From Erythrobacter aurantius (lineage in GTDB: Bacteria; Pseudomonadota; Alphaproteobacteria; Sphingomonadales; Sphingomonadaceae): 64,000 nucleotides of DNA. The stretch is taken from contig NZ_CP090949.1 in assembly GCF_023823125.1 (NCBI RefSeq), forward strand, positions 1,760,001 to 1,824,000. The letters run 5' to 3'. The translations under genes and the position numbers were made by a program. The notes below the pieces were generated by a model, which saw only the letters and a list, made by a program, of their open reading frames with translations, was not told the origin of the DNA and did not search any database. Every line of letters begins with the position of its first letter. The stretch's first letter is position 1. Shown here in pieces: positions 7,497 to 51,105 of the stretch.

Positions 7497-8249
7497 ATGG
7501 CAGGTGAAATTCTCGACAATCAGGGCCGCGGCGAAGCAAGCTGGGGTTGGCCCCCGATCCATCCCGAAGGTCGCAAATATGGCGTGATCGCCATCGCGAT
7601 TTCTCTCATCCCGCTCCTGATCTTCGATTGGGAGATCATCGGCTGGCCGCTGTTGCTGCTGTCGCTGGGCGTCTTCGCGTTCTTCCGCGATCCCGAACGC
7701 GTGGTGCCGCAGGGCGACAATTCGATCGTCGCGCCGGCTGACGGTCTGGTGACGCTGATCACCACGGTGGAGCCGCCGGTGGAATTGCAGGTGGATGACG
7801 GCTCGGGCAATCCGGGACTTCCGGCTGGTCCGGTCACGCGCATTTCGATTTTCATGAGCGTGTTCGACGTACACATCAATCGCGCGCCGATTGCGGGCAC
7901 CGTACGACGGGTCGTCTATGTGCCGGGGAAGTTCGTGAATGCCGATCTCGACAAGGCGAGCGAAGAGAACGAGCGCCAGCACATCCTGATCGAAGGCGGC
8001 GATGGCCTCGCCATCGGCTTTACCCAGATCGCCGGACTGGTCGCGCGCCGCATCGTCCCGTTCGTGAAGCCGGGCGATATGGTGGCCAAGGGGCAGCGCG
8101 TGGGCCTGATCCGGTTTGGCAGCCGGGTCGATGTCTATCTGCCCGCGGGCACCGATGCCAAGGTGATGATGGGGCAGAAGATTGTCGCAGGCGAGACGGT
8201 GCTGGCGGAAATCGGCGCGACCCAGCTGATCGAAGGGATTGCGCAATAG
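7497..8249 (+). CDS. psd: phosphatidylserine decarboxylase proenzyme (short type)
   Basis: Makes phosphatidylethanolamine from phosphatidylserine at the inner membrane. 250 residues; the short archaeal/alphaproteobacterial form. A membrane hairpin (about 25-60) is followed by the conserved FFRDPER motif, APADG, the [13 protein letters not shown] motif with the catalytic His, and near 203 IRFGSRVDV, whose Gly-Ser bond is the self-cleavage site that creates the pyruvoyl group. The next gene, pssA, makes the substrate, so the two form a PE-synthesis operon. Confidence 0.97.
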
Positions 8250-8292
8250 TGATCGCCGCAGGCGGTCGCGCGCAGGATTGCAGGACGTTCCA

Positions 8293-9147
8293 TTGAAGAA
8301 GCGCTCCATCTCCCGGTTCAAGCCGCAATTGCCCGCCCGGGTCGGCCCGAAGGCGGCTGAGGACGAGGACTCGAAGGAAGCGACCGACGGACGCGGGCTG
8401 AGCCTGCGGGCGATGCTGCCCAATGCGATCACCGCGGCGGCGCTGTGCGCGGGGCTTACGGGCGTTCGTTTCGCGATTGAGGAGCAGTGGGCCTATGCCG
8501 TGCTGGCGGTGGCGCTGGCGGGCGTGCTGGACGGGATCGACGGACGGATCGCGCGGCTGCTCAATGCGCAATCGCGCTTTGGTGCGGAGCTGGACAGTCT
8601 GGCGGATTCGCTGTCTTTCGGGATGGCGCCTGCGCTGATCCTCTACATGTGGTCCTTGCAGGATTTGCCCCGGTTCGGGTGGTTTGCCGCGCTCGCCTTC
8701 GCGATCTGCTGCGCGCTGCGGCTCGCTCGCTTCAATGCGCGGATCGATGTTGAGGACCAGCCGCACAAATCCGCCGGTTTCCTGACCGGGGTTCCCGCGC
8801 CTGTCGGAGCAGGGCTGGCGTTCACACCGTGCTATCTCTGGATCGAGACGGGAATGGATATCTTCCGCGATCCGGTGATCCTGGCAATCTGGTTGGCGGT
8901 GATCGCGATCCTGCTGATTTCGAACATGGCAACGCTAAGCTGGACGGCGATCAGGCCGCGCCGCGATGTGCGCCTGCCGCTGCTTGCGTTCTCGGCCATG
9001 GCGTTTGCGGCCTTGCTGCTGGAGCCGTGGTGGACGCTGACCGCGATCAGCGCGGTCTATCTGGCGTTGATGCCCTATGCGTTGATCAAATACGGCAAGA
9101 TCAAGCGGCGCCGGGCAGAGGCGGCGATCAGCCAGCAATCTGAGTGA
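8293..9147 (+). CDS. pssA: CDP-diacylglycerol-serine O-phosphatidyltransferase
   Basis: Membrane enzyme that condenses CDP-diacylglycerol with serine to give phosphatidylserine, used by Psd just upstream. The CDP-alcohol phosphatidyltransferase signature is intact around residue 78: DGIDGRIAR then GAELDSLAD, with all Asp residues. About seven to eight hydrophobic segments; a basic N-terminus of about 40 residues and a basic tail. No ATG lies in the right place: I chose the TTG preceded by a GGA stretch, giving 284 residues; another in-frame TTG at 8239, inside psd, would add 18 residues. Type II PssA of about 250-290 residues fits. Confidence 0.95.
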   Translation: MKKRSISRFKPQLPARVGPKAAEDEDSKEATDGRGLSLRAMLPNAITAAALCAGLTGVRFAIEEQWAYAVLAVALAGVLDGIDGRIARLLNAQSRFGAELDSLADSLSFGMAPALILYMWSLQDLPRFGWFAALAFAICCALRLARFNARIDVEDQPHKSAGFLTGVPAPVGAGLAFTPCYLWIETGMDIFRDPVILAIWLAVIAILLISNMATLSWTAIRPRRDVRLPLLAFSAMAFAALLLEPWWTLTAISAVYLALMPYALIKYGKIKRRRAEAAISQQSE

Positions 9148-9385
9148 CGGGCAGGGGAAGGCGGCGCGCATAGGGGCGCGTGGCGGCTGCCAGAGTCCGG
9201 CGGGCCGGGCGGCGCAGGCGAACTTCATGCGCGTGAACCTGCGGGACGAACCCGGCGCGCAGCAAGGCCTGTTCGCGCTTCACCGCGCGATAGGCCGCTT
9301 TCCCGCGCAGCCAGCTGTCCAGCAGGCTGAGAGCCGTGGCGATGGTCGCGAGAATTAGCAGGCAGGTGGCAATCGTGGCGATCAT
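9128..9385 (-). CDS. small single-span membrane protein, probably SOS-regulated
   Basis: 85 residues. A hydrophobic segment at about 4-22 (IATCLLILATIATALSLL) is followed by a strongly basic cytoplasmic part rich in Arg and Ala. No known family recognised. Evidence that it is real: a ribosome site GGAG nine bases before the ATG; a -35 TTGACT upstream on its strand; and two GTTC-N7-GTTC LexA boxes in that promoter. The stop codon overlaps the convergent pssA end by 20 bases. Small LexA-controlled single-span proteins in alphaproteobacteria (SidA of Caulobacter) block cell division; a similar role here is inference from regulation and topology only, not from sequence similarity. Confidence 0.62.
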   Translation of the reverse strand: MIATIATCLLILATIATALSLLDSWLRGKAAYRAVKREQALLRAGFVPQVHAHEVRLRRPARRTLAAATRPYARRLPLPVTQIAG

Positions 9386-9429
9386 CTCGAAGGTCTCCGT
9401 ATCCGACGTTCAGCGTTTGTTCTGATCAC

Positions 9430-9458
9430 TTTGTTCCCCAGGTGTTCCACTTAGTCAA
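9430..9458 (-). promoter_or_regulatory. candidate promoter of the small membrane protein gene
   Basis: Read on the minus strand, -35 TTGACT (9458-9453) and, after 17 bases, a weak -10 AACAAA (9435-9430), about 45 bases before the start codon. One LexA box covers the spacer and -10, and the other lies just upstream of the -35, the layout expected for repression. Confidence 0.5.
9433..9447. promoter_or_regulatory. LexA box 1 (alphaproteobacterial SOS operator)
   Basis: GTTCCCCAGGTGTTC fits the alphaproteobacterial LexA consensus GTTC-N7-GTTC exactly. It overlaps the spacer and -10 of the minus-strand promoter for the 85-aa membrane protein. Confidence 0.7.
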
Positions 9459-9465
9459 GAAGTTT

Positions 9466-9480
9466 GTTCCACTTGTGTTC
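9466..9480. promoter_or_regulatory. LexA box 2 (alphaproteobacterial SOS operator)
   Basis: GTTCCACTTGTGTTC is a second exact GTTC-N7-GTTC match in the same orientation, 33 bases (about three helical turns) from box 1, upstream of the minus-strand -35. Being on the same helix face favours cooperative binding. It is about 190 bases upstream of rpsB on the other side, where a regulatory role is less likely. Confidence 0.65.
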
Positions 9481-9673
9481 CAAAGCGGCGTTTGGCACTA
9501 GATTTTGTGGAGGAAGGCGGCTAATGGCGCGACCTCGTTGATGGCCCGTTCCGAATCATTCGGCGGCGAATCAGCGAAATTCACATGGAAGGCGCAACAT
9601 ACCGGTGCTGCCCGCGGGATCTCCGCAGGTCGGTTCCATGCTTTCCAGAGGAACAACCGGAAAGGAAATACCT

Positions 9674-10459
9674 ATGGCGGCCACTACCGTCACCATGCAG
9701 CAATTGATCGAGGCCGGCGCACACTTCGGCCACCAGACCCACCGCTGGAACCCGCGGATGAAGCCGTACATCTTCGGCGCCCGCAACGGTGTTCACATCA
9801 TCGACCTGTCGCAGACCGTGCCGCTGTTCGCGCGCGCGCTCGATTTCGTCGAGCAGACTGTCCGCGCAGGCGGCAAGGTGCTGTTCGTCGGCACCAAGCG
9901 TCAGGCGCAGGAGCCGATCGCCGAAGCAGCCCGCATGTCGGGCCAGCACTTCGTCAACCACCGCTGGCTGGGCGGCATGCTCACCAACTGGAAGACGATC
10001 AGCGGTTCGATCAAGCGTCTCAAGACCCTTGAAGAGCAGCTTTCGGGCGACACCAGCGGCTTCACCAAGAAGGAAGTCCTCCAGCTCACCCGTGAGCGTG
10101 ACAAGCTCGAACTCTCGCTCGGCGGTATCCGTGACATGGGCGGCATTCCGGACGTGATGTTCGTGATCGACGCCAACAAGGAAGACCTCGCCATCAAGGA
10201 AGCAGCCGTGCTCGGCATTCCGGTGATCGCGGTGCTCGACACCAACACCGATCCGACCGGCATCGCATTCCCGGTTCCGGGTAATGACGATGCGGCGCGT
10301 GCGGTGCGTCTGTACTGCCAGGCGATCGGCGATGCCGCCATCGCGGGCAAGGGCGGCGCGGTGCAGGCCTCGGGCGAAGATTTCGGCGCGATGGAAACTC
10401 CGCCGGCTGAACCGACCGCTGAAGCTCCGGCTGAAGAAGCGACTGCTGAAGAAGCCTGA
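9674..10459 (+). CDS. rpsB: 30S ribosomal protein S2
   Basis: Small-subunit ribosomal protein S2, 261 residues. Typical opening [21 protein letters not shown] and the conserved segments [21 protein letters not shown] and [17 protein letters not shown]. The C-terminal 30 residues are Glu/Ala-rich, common in this class. The ATG after AAAGGAAATACCT is used; an in-frame extension upstream is leader sequence. Followed by tsf at 120 bases, the classic rpsB-tsf operon. The roughly 190-base leader may contain the autoregulatory S2 site, but I could not define a structure. Confidence 0.98.
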
Positions 10460-48435: not shown

Positions 48436-51105
48436 TCAATAGTCGAACGAAACACGCATACCCACCGTCAACGGACGATTGGTGATGATGCGTTCCCGAT
48501 CATTGCCGAACACACCGGAAATTTCCGCGCGTTCGTCCGAAAGGTTCTCACCGAACACCTCGAAGCGCCAACGATCAGCCACGACACCTGCCGAAAGGTC
48601 GAACACGGTGTAGCTATCGAGCCGGATCTTGTTGATCTCGATAATGTCGGTGAATTTCGACGCCGAATAGGTCATCTGCGGCTGGATGAACGCCTCCAGA
48701 TCACCGTTCAGATCCCATTCGTAGCGCGCCCTGATGTTGCCCTGGAAGCCCGGGGCGTAGGCCAGTTCTTCTCCCGCGATCACATCGCTGGTCGGAATCA
48801 ACACCTCGGTGATCTCCGTGTCGAGGATCGAAAACGCCCCGGCAAAGGTCAGGCCCGGCGTCGAATACGGGGCGATCGTGAAATCGGATTCGATCCCGTA
48901 GATTTCAGCATTCGCCGCGTTCGAAGAGAAGAACAGATTTGTGATGGAAGGATCGAAAATCTGCGTTTGCAAGTTGGAGATATCGACGAAGAATGCCGAA
49001 CCGTTCCAGCGGAACTGGCCGTCGATCAGGTCCATTTTCCAGCCGAATTCGTAGTTCTTGACTTCATCGGTCTCGACCTCGAACGGAACCGTAAAGCCGC
49101 TGCCCCCCGGTGCCACCGCGCCACCCGGACGGTTAAGCAGACCGGGGCGGAAGCCTTCGGAATAGGTGGCGTAGAACAAGAGGTCCGGCGTCGGGGTCAG
49201 GGTGATCGTGCCCTTGAAGATAGTGCCGCTGGTGGATGCGGTGTCAGGGGCGCGGACGGCGTTGAACACCTGCTGCGCCTGTGTGGCGGAAAGTCCTGCG
49301 GCCTGAATATCGGCGAGGCTGTCGCTCAGGTCGAACGTCTGACGCAAGGCTGCGTTGCATGATCCGATAAACGTGAATTGGCCGTCGCCGTTGTACAGAT
49401 CGCTGATGTCCGTACCGAAGGCATTGGCATCCTGAGCCGCCCCGGAATTACAGAACGACCCATTAGCCGACCCTTCGAAGTCGACTTCGACATCGTAATA
49501 GCGAGCCCCGAAAGTCACGGTCAGCAGATCGGGGACCACGTCAAAGCTGGCTTCGCCAAAAATGCCAAACTGTTCGTCTGTCCGGCGAATGTCGTTGCGG
49601 AAGATCGTATCGCGCGGGAAAGGTCCCGGATCGGAAAAGAAACCGGTGGTCTGGGGGAAATTCGGTGCAAACGGCCCGAATGGCTCCGCCAGAACATTCC
49701 CCGGATAAGCGAAGTCGACGCGTTCTTCGAGGCTGAGGTCCGAATAAAAGCCCCCGCCCTGAAACCGGACGCGCCAATCTTCGGGGGTGCTGAAGCGGAG
49801 CTCCTGAGTGAACACCTCCGTCTTGCTGAAAGAATTGATGTAGAGGTTGGGTGCCTGGCAGGTCCCGCTCGGATCGGCAGCACCCGGATAGCTGACGGAG
49901 CCGTCACAGATGTAATACGGCAGATACTGACCGGCGAACATGTAATCGGTGTAGTCGGCGCGCTGTTCGCTCTCGCGATCGGTGTATGCGCCTGTGTAGA
50001 TCACATCCAGCCAGCCGATGCGGCCTTCGACTGTCCAGCTGGTATTTGAGAAATCATCCTCCAGCCTGTCCGTCTCAAACCGTTCGATTTCAAGGTCGTC
50101 GAGGCCACCCAGTTCCGGATCCGCAAAGAACACACCGTCGCTTTCGAGGCTCTGCCGCTGGTGCGACAGGTTTACGGTCCAGTCAGGGGTAACTTCCCAC
50201 AGGGCGCTCACGCGGAAGCCCGCATATTGGGTGTCGTTGAAATCGTCCTGTGCGATGCCGGCATTGTCGGCTTCGAGGAAGGTGACATTGGACAGGTTGG
50301 CGGTCGACTGGAAGCCAGCACGGATAGCGGACACGGGAACACCGTTGGCGCGAACGGTGCCTTCGGGGCGGAACCGTGCACTTTCCCGCAGGTCACGGGT
50401 GCCTTGGACATTGTCGACGTAGCCACCCTGATCATCGAGATATGCGACCGCGCGAAGGGCAAAGGTGTCAGTGACTGGCACGTTGACCATCACTTCGCCC
50501 TGATAGCTTGCCTCGCCCCCTTTGGTGAAAGAGACTCCGGCTGAACCCTTGCCATAGAAACCCGAAAGGTCGGGCTTGTTGGTGATCAGGCGGACAACGC
50601 CTGCTTGCGAACTGGCGCCGAACAGCGTGCCTTGCGGACCTGAGAGGACTTCGATCCGCTCAAGGTCAGCGGCATAGACGTCGAGATTGCGCCCCGGCTG
50701 CGAGAGGGGTTGATCGTTCAGATACAGCGCGACGTTGGGCGCAAGCCCGGCAACACCGGCTACCGTAATGTTGGGCGTAGTGGAGGCGAGGCCGCGAATG
50801 TAGATCGTGCTTTGTCCGGGGCCATTGCCGCCAGCCGTAACTGTCGGGATCTGCTCAAGATAGTCTTCGAAGGTATCGATGTTGAGTTGGTCAAGCTCCT
50901 CGGCGCCGATCGCGCTGACCGAAACCGGCACGTCCTGCAGATCTTCGCTCTTGCGCTGCGCCGTGACGACGATGGTGCGAACGCCGCCTTGACGCTGCGT
51001 GCTTTCGGTTTGTTGCTGAGCCGGTTGGGTGGTTTGCGCATAAACAGGTGATGCGATTGCGACTGCGAGTGCGCCGATCGACGCCCCGCTTATATATTTC
51101 GACAT
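48436..51105 (-). CDS. TonB-dependent outer-membrane receptor
   Basis: 889 residues. Signal peptide ends at SPVYAQ (about 24); plug with TonB-box-like IVVTAQRKSEDLQDVPVSV and TIYIRGL; 22-strand barrel ending GMRVSFDY with an aromatic C-terminus. A strong ribosome site AAAGGGGC precedes the ATG. The ligand is unknown. The downstream gene is the TPR-sulfotransferase. Confidence 0.95.
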   Translation of the reverse strand: MSKYISGASIGALAVAIASPVYAQTTQPAQQQTESTQRQGGVRTIVVTAQRKSEDLQDVPVSVSAIGAEELDQLNIDTFEDYLEQIPTVTAGGNGPGQSTIYIRGLASTTPNITVAGVAGLAPNVALYLNDQPLSQPGRNLDVYAADLERIEVLSGPQGTLFGASSQAGVVRLITNKPDLSGFYGKGSAGVSFTKGGEASYQGEVMVNVPVTDTFALRAVAYLDDQGGYVDNVQGTRDLRESARFRPEGTVRANGVPVSAIRAGFQSTANLSNVTFLEADNAGIAQDDFNDTQYAGFRVSALWEVTPDWTVNLSHQRQSLESDGVFFADPELGGLDDLEIERFETDRLEDDFSNTSWTVEGRIGWLDVIYTGAYTDRESEQRADYTDYMFAGQYLPYYICDGSVSYPGAADPSGTCQAPNLYINSFSKTEVFTQELRFSTPEDWRVRFQGGGFYSDLSLEERVDFAYPGNVLAEPFGPFAPNFPQTTGFFSDPGPFPRDTIFRNDIRRTDEQFGIFGEASFDVVPDLLTVTFGARYYDVEVDFEGSANGSFCNSGAAQDANAFGTDISDLYNGDGQFTFIGSCNAALRQTFDLSDSLADIQAAGLSATQAQQVFNAVRAPDTASTSGTIFKGTITLTPTPDLLFYATYSEGFRPGLLNRPGGAVAPGGSGFTVPFEVETDEVKNYEFGWKMDLIDGQFRWNGSAFFVDISNLQTQIFDPSITNLFFSSNAANAEIYGIESDFTIAPYSTPGLTFAGAFSILDTEITEVLIPTSDVIAGEELAYAPGFQGNIRARYEWDLNGDLEAFIQPQMTYSASKFTDIIEINKIRLDSYTVFDLSAGVVADRWRFEVFGENLSDERAEISGVFGNDRERIITNRPLTVGMRVSFDY

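Follow-up and report, generated by a model that had tools for sequence, protein, structure and literature searches.

Several of the division inhibitors that are induced by the SOS response are small single-span proteins that act on FtsW or on late division steps (PMC13396833, PMC4211646). SidA of Caulobacter crescentus is a small inner-membrane protein controlled by LexA through a GTTCN7GTTC motif (PMC4211646, PMC12700426); it interacts with FtsW and inhibits division there (PMC4211646). YneA of Bacillus subtilis is an SOS-induced single-span division inhibitor that is rapidly degraded and targets FtsW through its membrane helix, and modelling predicts that ChiZ, SosA and SidA also bind FtsW (PMC13396833). 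SosA of Staphylococcus aureus has 77 amino acids, an N-terminal membrane helix, a variable sequence and a fixed place on the chromosome, and its extreme C terminus limits its activity by proteolysis: SosA that lacks its last ten residues does the cell far greater harm, and CtpA seems to restrain the protein (PMC6851548). DidA, also from C. crescentus, is a 71-aa single-span division inhibitor that is induced by damage independently of SOS and activated by DriD (PMC4211646). For sphingomonads, our literature search returned no report on such a gene or on division arrest after DNA damage; an expression study of Sphingopyxis granuli describes SOS induction in anaerobic growth (PMC6472365).

We analysed a 64,000-nucleotide stretch of the Erythrobacter aurantius chromosome (the window; NZ_CP090949.1, positions 1,760,001 to 1,824,000), in which a small gene lies between pssA and rpsB. 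On balance we favour the reading that LexA represses this gene and that its product, a small bitopic protein of the inner membrane, serves as the SOS checkpoint effector of sphingomonads. Compared by description with SidA, which has 29 amino acids, the members of the family are longer (63–111 aa, with 85 aa for the window protein), and we saw no counterpart next to rpsB in those other families of the order or class that we read. YneA has an extracellular LysM domain, whereas the window protein has no Pfam match and no LysM appears in the family listing of 50 members, which leaves no sign of a domain of the YneA/ChiZ type. DidA is likewise a small single-span protein but is independent of SOS, and the boxes here are of the LexA type. 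We set the small gene apart from the SidA, YneA and SosA families; the proposed likeness is functional and, for SidA, drawn from its description. The features of the locus are as follows.

8239 to 9147, plus strand: pssA (as named in an earlier sequence-only reading, with the start as listed mechanically), convergent with the small ORF
9128 to 9385, minus strand: ORF of 85 amino acids with an ATG start, a stop codon at 9128–9130 and the C terminus TQIAG
9395 to 9398, minus strand: probable ribosome-binding site GGAG, by sequence reading, 9 nt before the ATG
9408 to 9422, minus strand: LexA-type box 3, an exact match within the putative 5′ leader, where many members of the genus also carry a box
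9433 to 9447, minus strand: LexA-type box 2, which fills the spacer between −35 and −10 and is conserved in position across the family
9453 to 9458, minus strand: −35 element TTGACT
9466 to 9480, minus strand: LexA-type box 1, an exact match to GAAC-N7-GAAC upstream of the −35 element
9674 to 10459, plus strand: rpsB, divergent neighbour of the small ORF and anchor for synteny

On the minus strand, GGAACACAAGTGGAACAAACTTCTTGACTAAGTGGAACACCTGGGGAACAAAGTGATCAGAACAAACGCTGAACGTCGGATACGGAGACCTTCGAGATG comprises the three GAAC-N7-GAAC boxes, the TTGACT −35 element, GGAG and the ATG of the 85-aa frame. The sequence-only reading had described two GTTC-N7-GTTC sites 33 bp apart, one over the spacer and −10 and the other upstream of TTGACT, followed by a ribosome site and an 85-aa single-span basic protein. 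These elements were confirmed: both sites are exact (9433–9447 and 9466–9480), TTGACT reads from 9458 to 9453, and GGAG (9398–9395) precedes the ORF (9385–9128, minus strand, ATG). The third box, at 9408–9422, was absent from that account. A box at the position of box 1 is present in only part of the genus. A strict sigma-70 scan of 8900–9700 returned no promoter and no terminator, and TTGACT is not followed by a recognizable −10; the weak −10 is the weak point of the promoter reading.

The bare GTTC-N7-GTTC motif is common, with 95 sites in the 3.42-Mb genome versus 84 for a reversed control pattern, so a single site means little. The window holds 4 sites versus 1.67 expected, a number that 11 of 100 shuffles reach. 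Only at 9408–9480 do three sites of the genome cluster together, and about 2 of 20,000 uniform placements give three starts within 58 bp. Chance as the origin of the boxes before the small ORF is ruled out by their conservation in front of rpsB across the family: at 82 loci, the 420-bp stretches that precede this gene hold 116 sites versus 1.96 expected from adjoining DNA. The fourth site in the window (50609–50623) is off the pattern, with a GC-rich spacer and a position inside a 928-codon minus-strand open frame, and is probably due to chance.

The first set, of 82 loci of the family anchored on rpsB, comes from searches of the genus (31 genomes) and of 59 and 79 genomes, with the best 30 loci read per search; one genome (G155) gave no rpsB match, and we left out of the counts L009–L022, which are rpsB duplicates or places away from rpsB, and L105, which offers 26 bp upstream. 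A second set of 80 loci comes from a scan of contigs with rpsB as the query, after a scan with the window protein had returned no relative; it overlaps the first set through shared genomes and includes Erythrobacter, Qipengyuania, Tsuneonella, Pelagerythrobacter, Novosphingobium, Sphingobium and Sphingomonas. Listed first among its matches to the RpsB of the window is one from an uncultured Erythrobacter sp. (94%).

Within the genus, 30 of the 31 genomes yielded an rpsB locus and all 30 loci carry at least one exact box upstream. Across the family, 72 of the 82 loci have an exact box no more than 420 bp upstream of rpsB, 114 of the 116 sites share one orientation, and in 68 of 71 loci TTGAC starts 9–12 nt ahead of a box (exactly 11 in 56). 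The second set has a box within 700 bp in 71 of 80 loci, a box with TTGAC in 66 and the ORF in 75. The sequence-only reading had named lack of conservation in relatives as evidence against its proposal; the boxes are clearly conserved, and its idea of an SOS-type promoter ahead of a gene for a small membrane protein has strong support. Among the exceptions, L063 and L076 (and L234 in the second set) have boxes with one mismatch, L086 has the ORF and no box, and six loci (L089, L090, L091, L102, L103 and L104) have neither box nor ORF, nor was pssA found beside rpsB there. Three Novosphingobium loci (L247, L248 and L259) have the ORF beside pssA and no box within 700 bp even at one mismatch, possibly through a loss or change of control, and L211 has pssA with neither ORF nor box. 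Outside the family we found nothing comparable: a site lies within about 1.5 kb of rpsB in 1 of 30 loci from other families of the order and in 2 of 28 from other families of the class (L177 close, L168 distant), the latter being 28 new loci read from 56 class genomes with rpsB.

The boxes lie about 195–270 bp before rpsB in the window, on its sense side, and could in principle belong to that gene, with LexA controlling ribosomal protein synthesis. We regard this as most improbable, as TTGAC and the boxes are arranged for transcription of the minus strand and the 28 rpsB loci from other families of the class show a single close site. Where rpsB lies elsewhere, moreover, the box stays with pssA: in nine genomes searched for pssA, 8 matched, and a box lies no more than 305 bp after pssA in 7 of the 8.

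Caulobacter LexA likewise recognizes GTTCN7GTTC (PMC12700426), and lexA is present in the E. aurantius genome. From 111 boxes of relatives, with those of this genome left out, we built a weight matrix and used it to rank the 95 sites; the three boxes of the window rank 6th, 20th and 21st, in an order that favours them, as the matrix was built from the same locus in relatives. The 20 other best-ranked sites were fetched, and ten neighbouring proteins were chosen by eye for a Pfam scan. Nine of the ten matched Pfam families in keeping with a repair or SOS function: RmuC, peptidase S24, DNA polymerase III alpha, UvrD, RecA, MmcB-like, LexA, UvrA and a KaiC/AAA protein with a LapB-type zinc ribbon, which we take to be RadA. 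The tenth had no Pfam match and is presumably ImuA. Judged by these neighbours, GTTC-N7-GTTC is the LexA-type box of this genome, and on the sequence evidence SOS control of the gene for the small membrane protein is close to certain.

We next considered the protein. An automatic rule that keeps ORFs of 55–115 aa and requires an N-terminal hydrophobic stretch found the small ORF in 74 of the 82 loci, and synteny including hand reading found it in 76. The sequence-only reading had proposed a search of relatives for the gene between pssA and rpsB: pssA adjoins in 74 loci, and the ORF was found in 72 of these by rule and in the other two by hand, a family-wide link with pssA that this reading had missed. 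Two ORFs came from hand reading: that of L095 has a slightly less hydrophobic helix, and that of L099 lies farther away, an open frame whose stop is outside the sequence read. In the second set the small gene is convergent with pssA in 74 of 75 loci. Nonsynonymous change is lower than synonymous change (pN < pS) in 36 of 36 pairs from one group of the genus and in 65 of 66 from another, with median ratios of 0.49 and 0.71, evidence that is qualitative because synonymous changes approach saturation (median pS 0.71 in one group). From these comparisons, we conclude that the small ORF is a real protein under purifying selection.

Its sequence changes fast. Of 149 family genomes, 14 gave a match in a sequence search with the window protein, as against 76 of 82 loci by synteny. 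Both sets together gave 137 distinct proteins with lengths of 63–111 aa (median 84), of which 135 have no charged residue among the first six and 136 are net positive after residue 24. An N-terminal hydrophobic stretch, indicating a single membrane span, is present in every ORF that the rule kept, as the rule itself required. AlphaFold2 models the window protein as one confident helix (residues 2–43) with a low-confidence tail (mean pLDDT 79.3). By the positive-inside rule of membrane topology, this distribution of charge predicts that the N terminus is outside and the tail inside. As read from their sequences, the members share a plan rather than a sequence, namely an N-terminal membrane helix, a net-positive tail and, in most, an -AA end.

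The window protein matches no Pfam and no NCBIfam family, no such family occurs in more than 2 of the 50 members scanned, the best hit in a PHROGs scan has an E value of 0.4, and there is no solved relative. A profile search of proteins returned 70, all without Pfam domains and either unnamed or named hypothetical. The same approach across the class matched 2 of 192 genomes, a count that cannot show absence, since it failed to match G091, in which synteny places the gene (L095). The earlier proposal of a new SOS effector finds support here, as no Pfam or NCBIfam family fits and the relatives are hypothetical or unnamed; a role in division is argued from analogy below.

A further conserved feature, also missed by the sequence-only reading, is the C terminus, which is -AA in 119 of the 137 distinct proteins. 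The tmRNA (ssrA) tag of the genome itself is ANDNEALAIAA, and the resemblance suggests that the -AA end acts as an inbuilt signal for degradation. The window protein ends in -IAG and a few relatives also depart from -AA, which weakens this suggestion for E. aurantius. Of the 54 open frames in the window with 300 codons or more, none ends in -AA, a weak control that includes non-coding frames.

The end of the small gene lies inside pssA. The two overlap by 20 bp in the window, and in 67 of 72 loci the stop codon of the small gene falls within pssA in the same phase. Using codon counts conditioned on the protein only, we found a bias in the pssA codons that determine the stop and the last alanine codons of the small gene: the pssA arginine whose codon gives the last alanine codons is CGG in 54 of 58 cases, versus 393 of 1,186 arginine codons elsewhere in pssA; the second set gave 52 of 60 versus 326 of 1,073, and the preceding pssA residue, when it is arginine, is AGG or AGA in 27 of 27 versus 71 of 1,073. 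The genomes are related, so neither these counts nor those of -AA ends are independent. We set aside as evidence of bias the AGR codons at i+1 (26 of 26), which are partly forced because the stop codon there needs an A. The simplest reading of these codons is that the antisense small gene constrains those of pssA. We also considered the -AA end as a by-product of the overlap with the conserved V/I-K-R-R end of PssA and rejected this, as the ORFs without an adjacent pssA (L073, L086 and L235) still end in -AA, which argues against it.

The position of the stop codon inside pssA in 67 of 72 loci, with no terminator after the gene in the 8900–9700 scan, would also suit a role for the transcript in place of the protein, whereby SOS transcription antisense into pssA lowers pssA expression. 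This is very unlikely in our view, as the frame is under purifying selection, the plan of the protein is conserved and the gene persists without an adjacent pssA.

Alternatively, the SOS protein might act on PssA or phospholipid synthesis and not on the divisome. The small gene and pssA are convergent in 74 first-set loci and in 74 of 75 second-set loci, which fits such a role, as does the box that follows pssA where rpsB lies elsewhere (7 of 8 loci), although the automatic filter found a membrane ORF ending in -AA in only 3 of those 8. The gene and box nevertheless persist in L073, from a genome (G006) with no pssA at E ≤ 1e-10, and in L235, with no pssA within 2 kb, and we consider this role rather improbable. 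In both L073 and L235, the latter from a Citromicrobium MAG, gene and box stay beside rpsB; the lack of pssA from G006 would be unusual for phospholipid synthesis. In two other loci (L162 and L163, from G068 and G137), a box lies about 37 bp past the end of the pssA match and the filter found no small membrane ORF; in G068 the rpsB locus (L086) holds an ORF with this plan and lacks a box.

The preferred reading is that of a LexA-controlled checkpoint protein that acts on division. LexA on the box between −35 and −10, with two more boxes here, would almost certainly keep the gene off. After DNA damage, RecA would cause the cleavage of LexA, as in the established pathway, and transcription would run away from rpsB towards pssA. 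Judging from the distribution of charge, the protein would very probably insert with the short uncharged N terminus facing outwards and the Arg/Pro-rich tail facing inwards. On the analogy of SidA, YneA and SosA, we lean towards a membrane helix that stops division at a late step, with the FtsW/FtsI/FtsN complex as its likeliest target. The C-terminal -AA (here -IAG) would probably make the protein short-lived through ClpXP or FtsH, such that division resumes after repair.

Division inhibition is, by analogy, the likeliest function of the small protein. In SidA the action at FtsW is described (PMC4211646), and the same function is proposed here. Against this reading stand the weak −10, the few genomes with the ORF and no box, the fast-changing sequence and the topology. 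The C-terminal part of SosA is extracellular, with a proposed cut by CtpA (PMC6851548), and that of YneA is also outside the membrane, the opposite of what we predict here, with a cytosolic tail and an ssrA-like end. We offer, as a tentative view that is a little less probable than not, that the gene encodes the equivalent of SulA and SidA for the whole family, a fast-evolving SOS division inhibitor with no earlier description, reversed in topology relative to SosA and YneA, with a C-terminal self-destruct signal that is encoded antisense in the 3′ end of pssA and constrains its codons.

The small SOS protein could instead depolarize the membrane or slow growth, and so resemble TisB in effect without being a specific division inhibitor. 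DinQ is described as an SOS-controlled toxic single-membrane-span peptide (PMC3567139), and the presence of three boxes points to a product harmful enough to need tight repression. A pore-forming peptide, however, would not seem to need so long a net-positive tail or the conserved C terminus, and we hold this explanation to be unlikely.

The small gene provides a direct and easily tested candidate for division arrest in Erythrobacter, Qipengyuania, Sphingobium, Novosphingobium and Sphingomonas. A fixed place, a conserved LexA box and topology together offer a way to find inhibitors that change too fast for homology, and if the -AA end is a degron, then the switch-on by LexA and the switch-off by proteolysis can both be read from the sequence.

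We also observed boxes of interest elsewhere. A LexA-type box of high rank, GTTCCCTATATGTTC, stands 69 bp ahead of an ORF at L138 (G000:C1:1087513-1090513); by eye this ORF resembles a tyrosine integrase, perhaps marking an SOS-linked mobile element. Two loci of this genome, L144 and L145, carry an identical box, GTTCCTATTATGTTC; one copy precedes the ORF that we take to be imuA-like, and the other precedes a different ORF.
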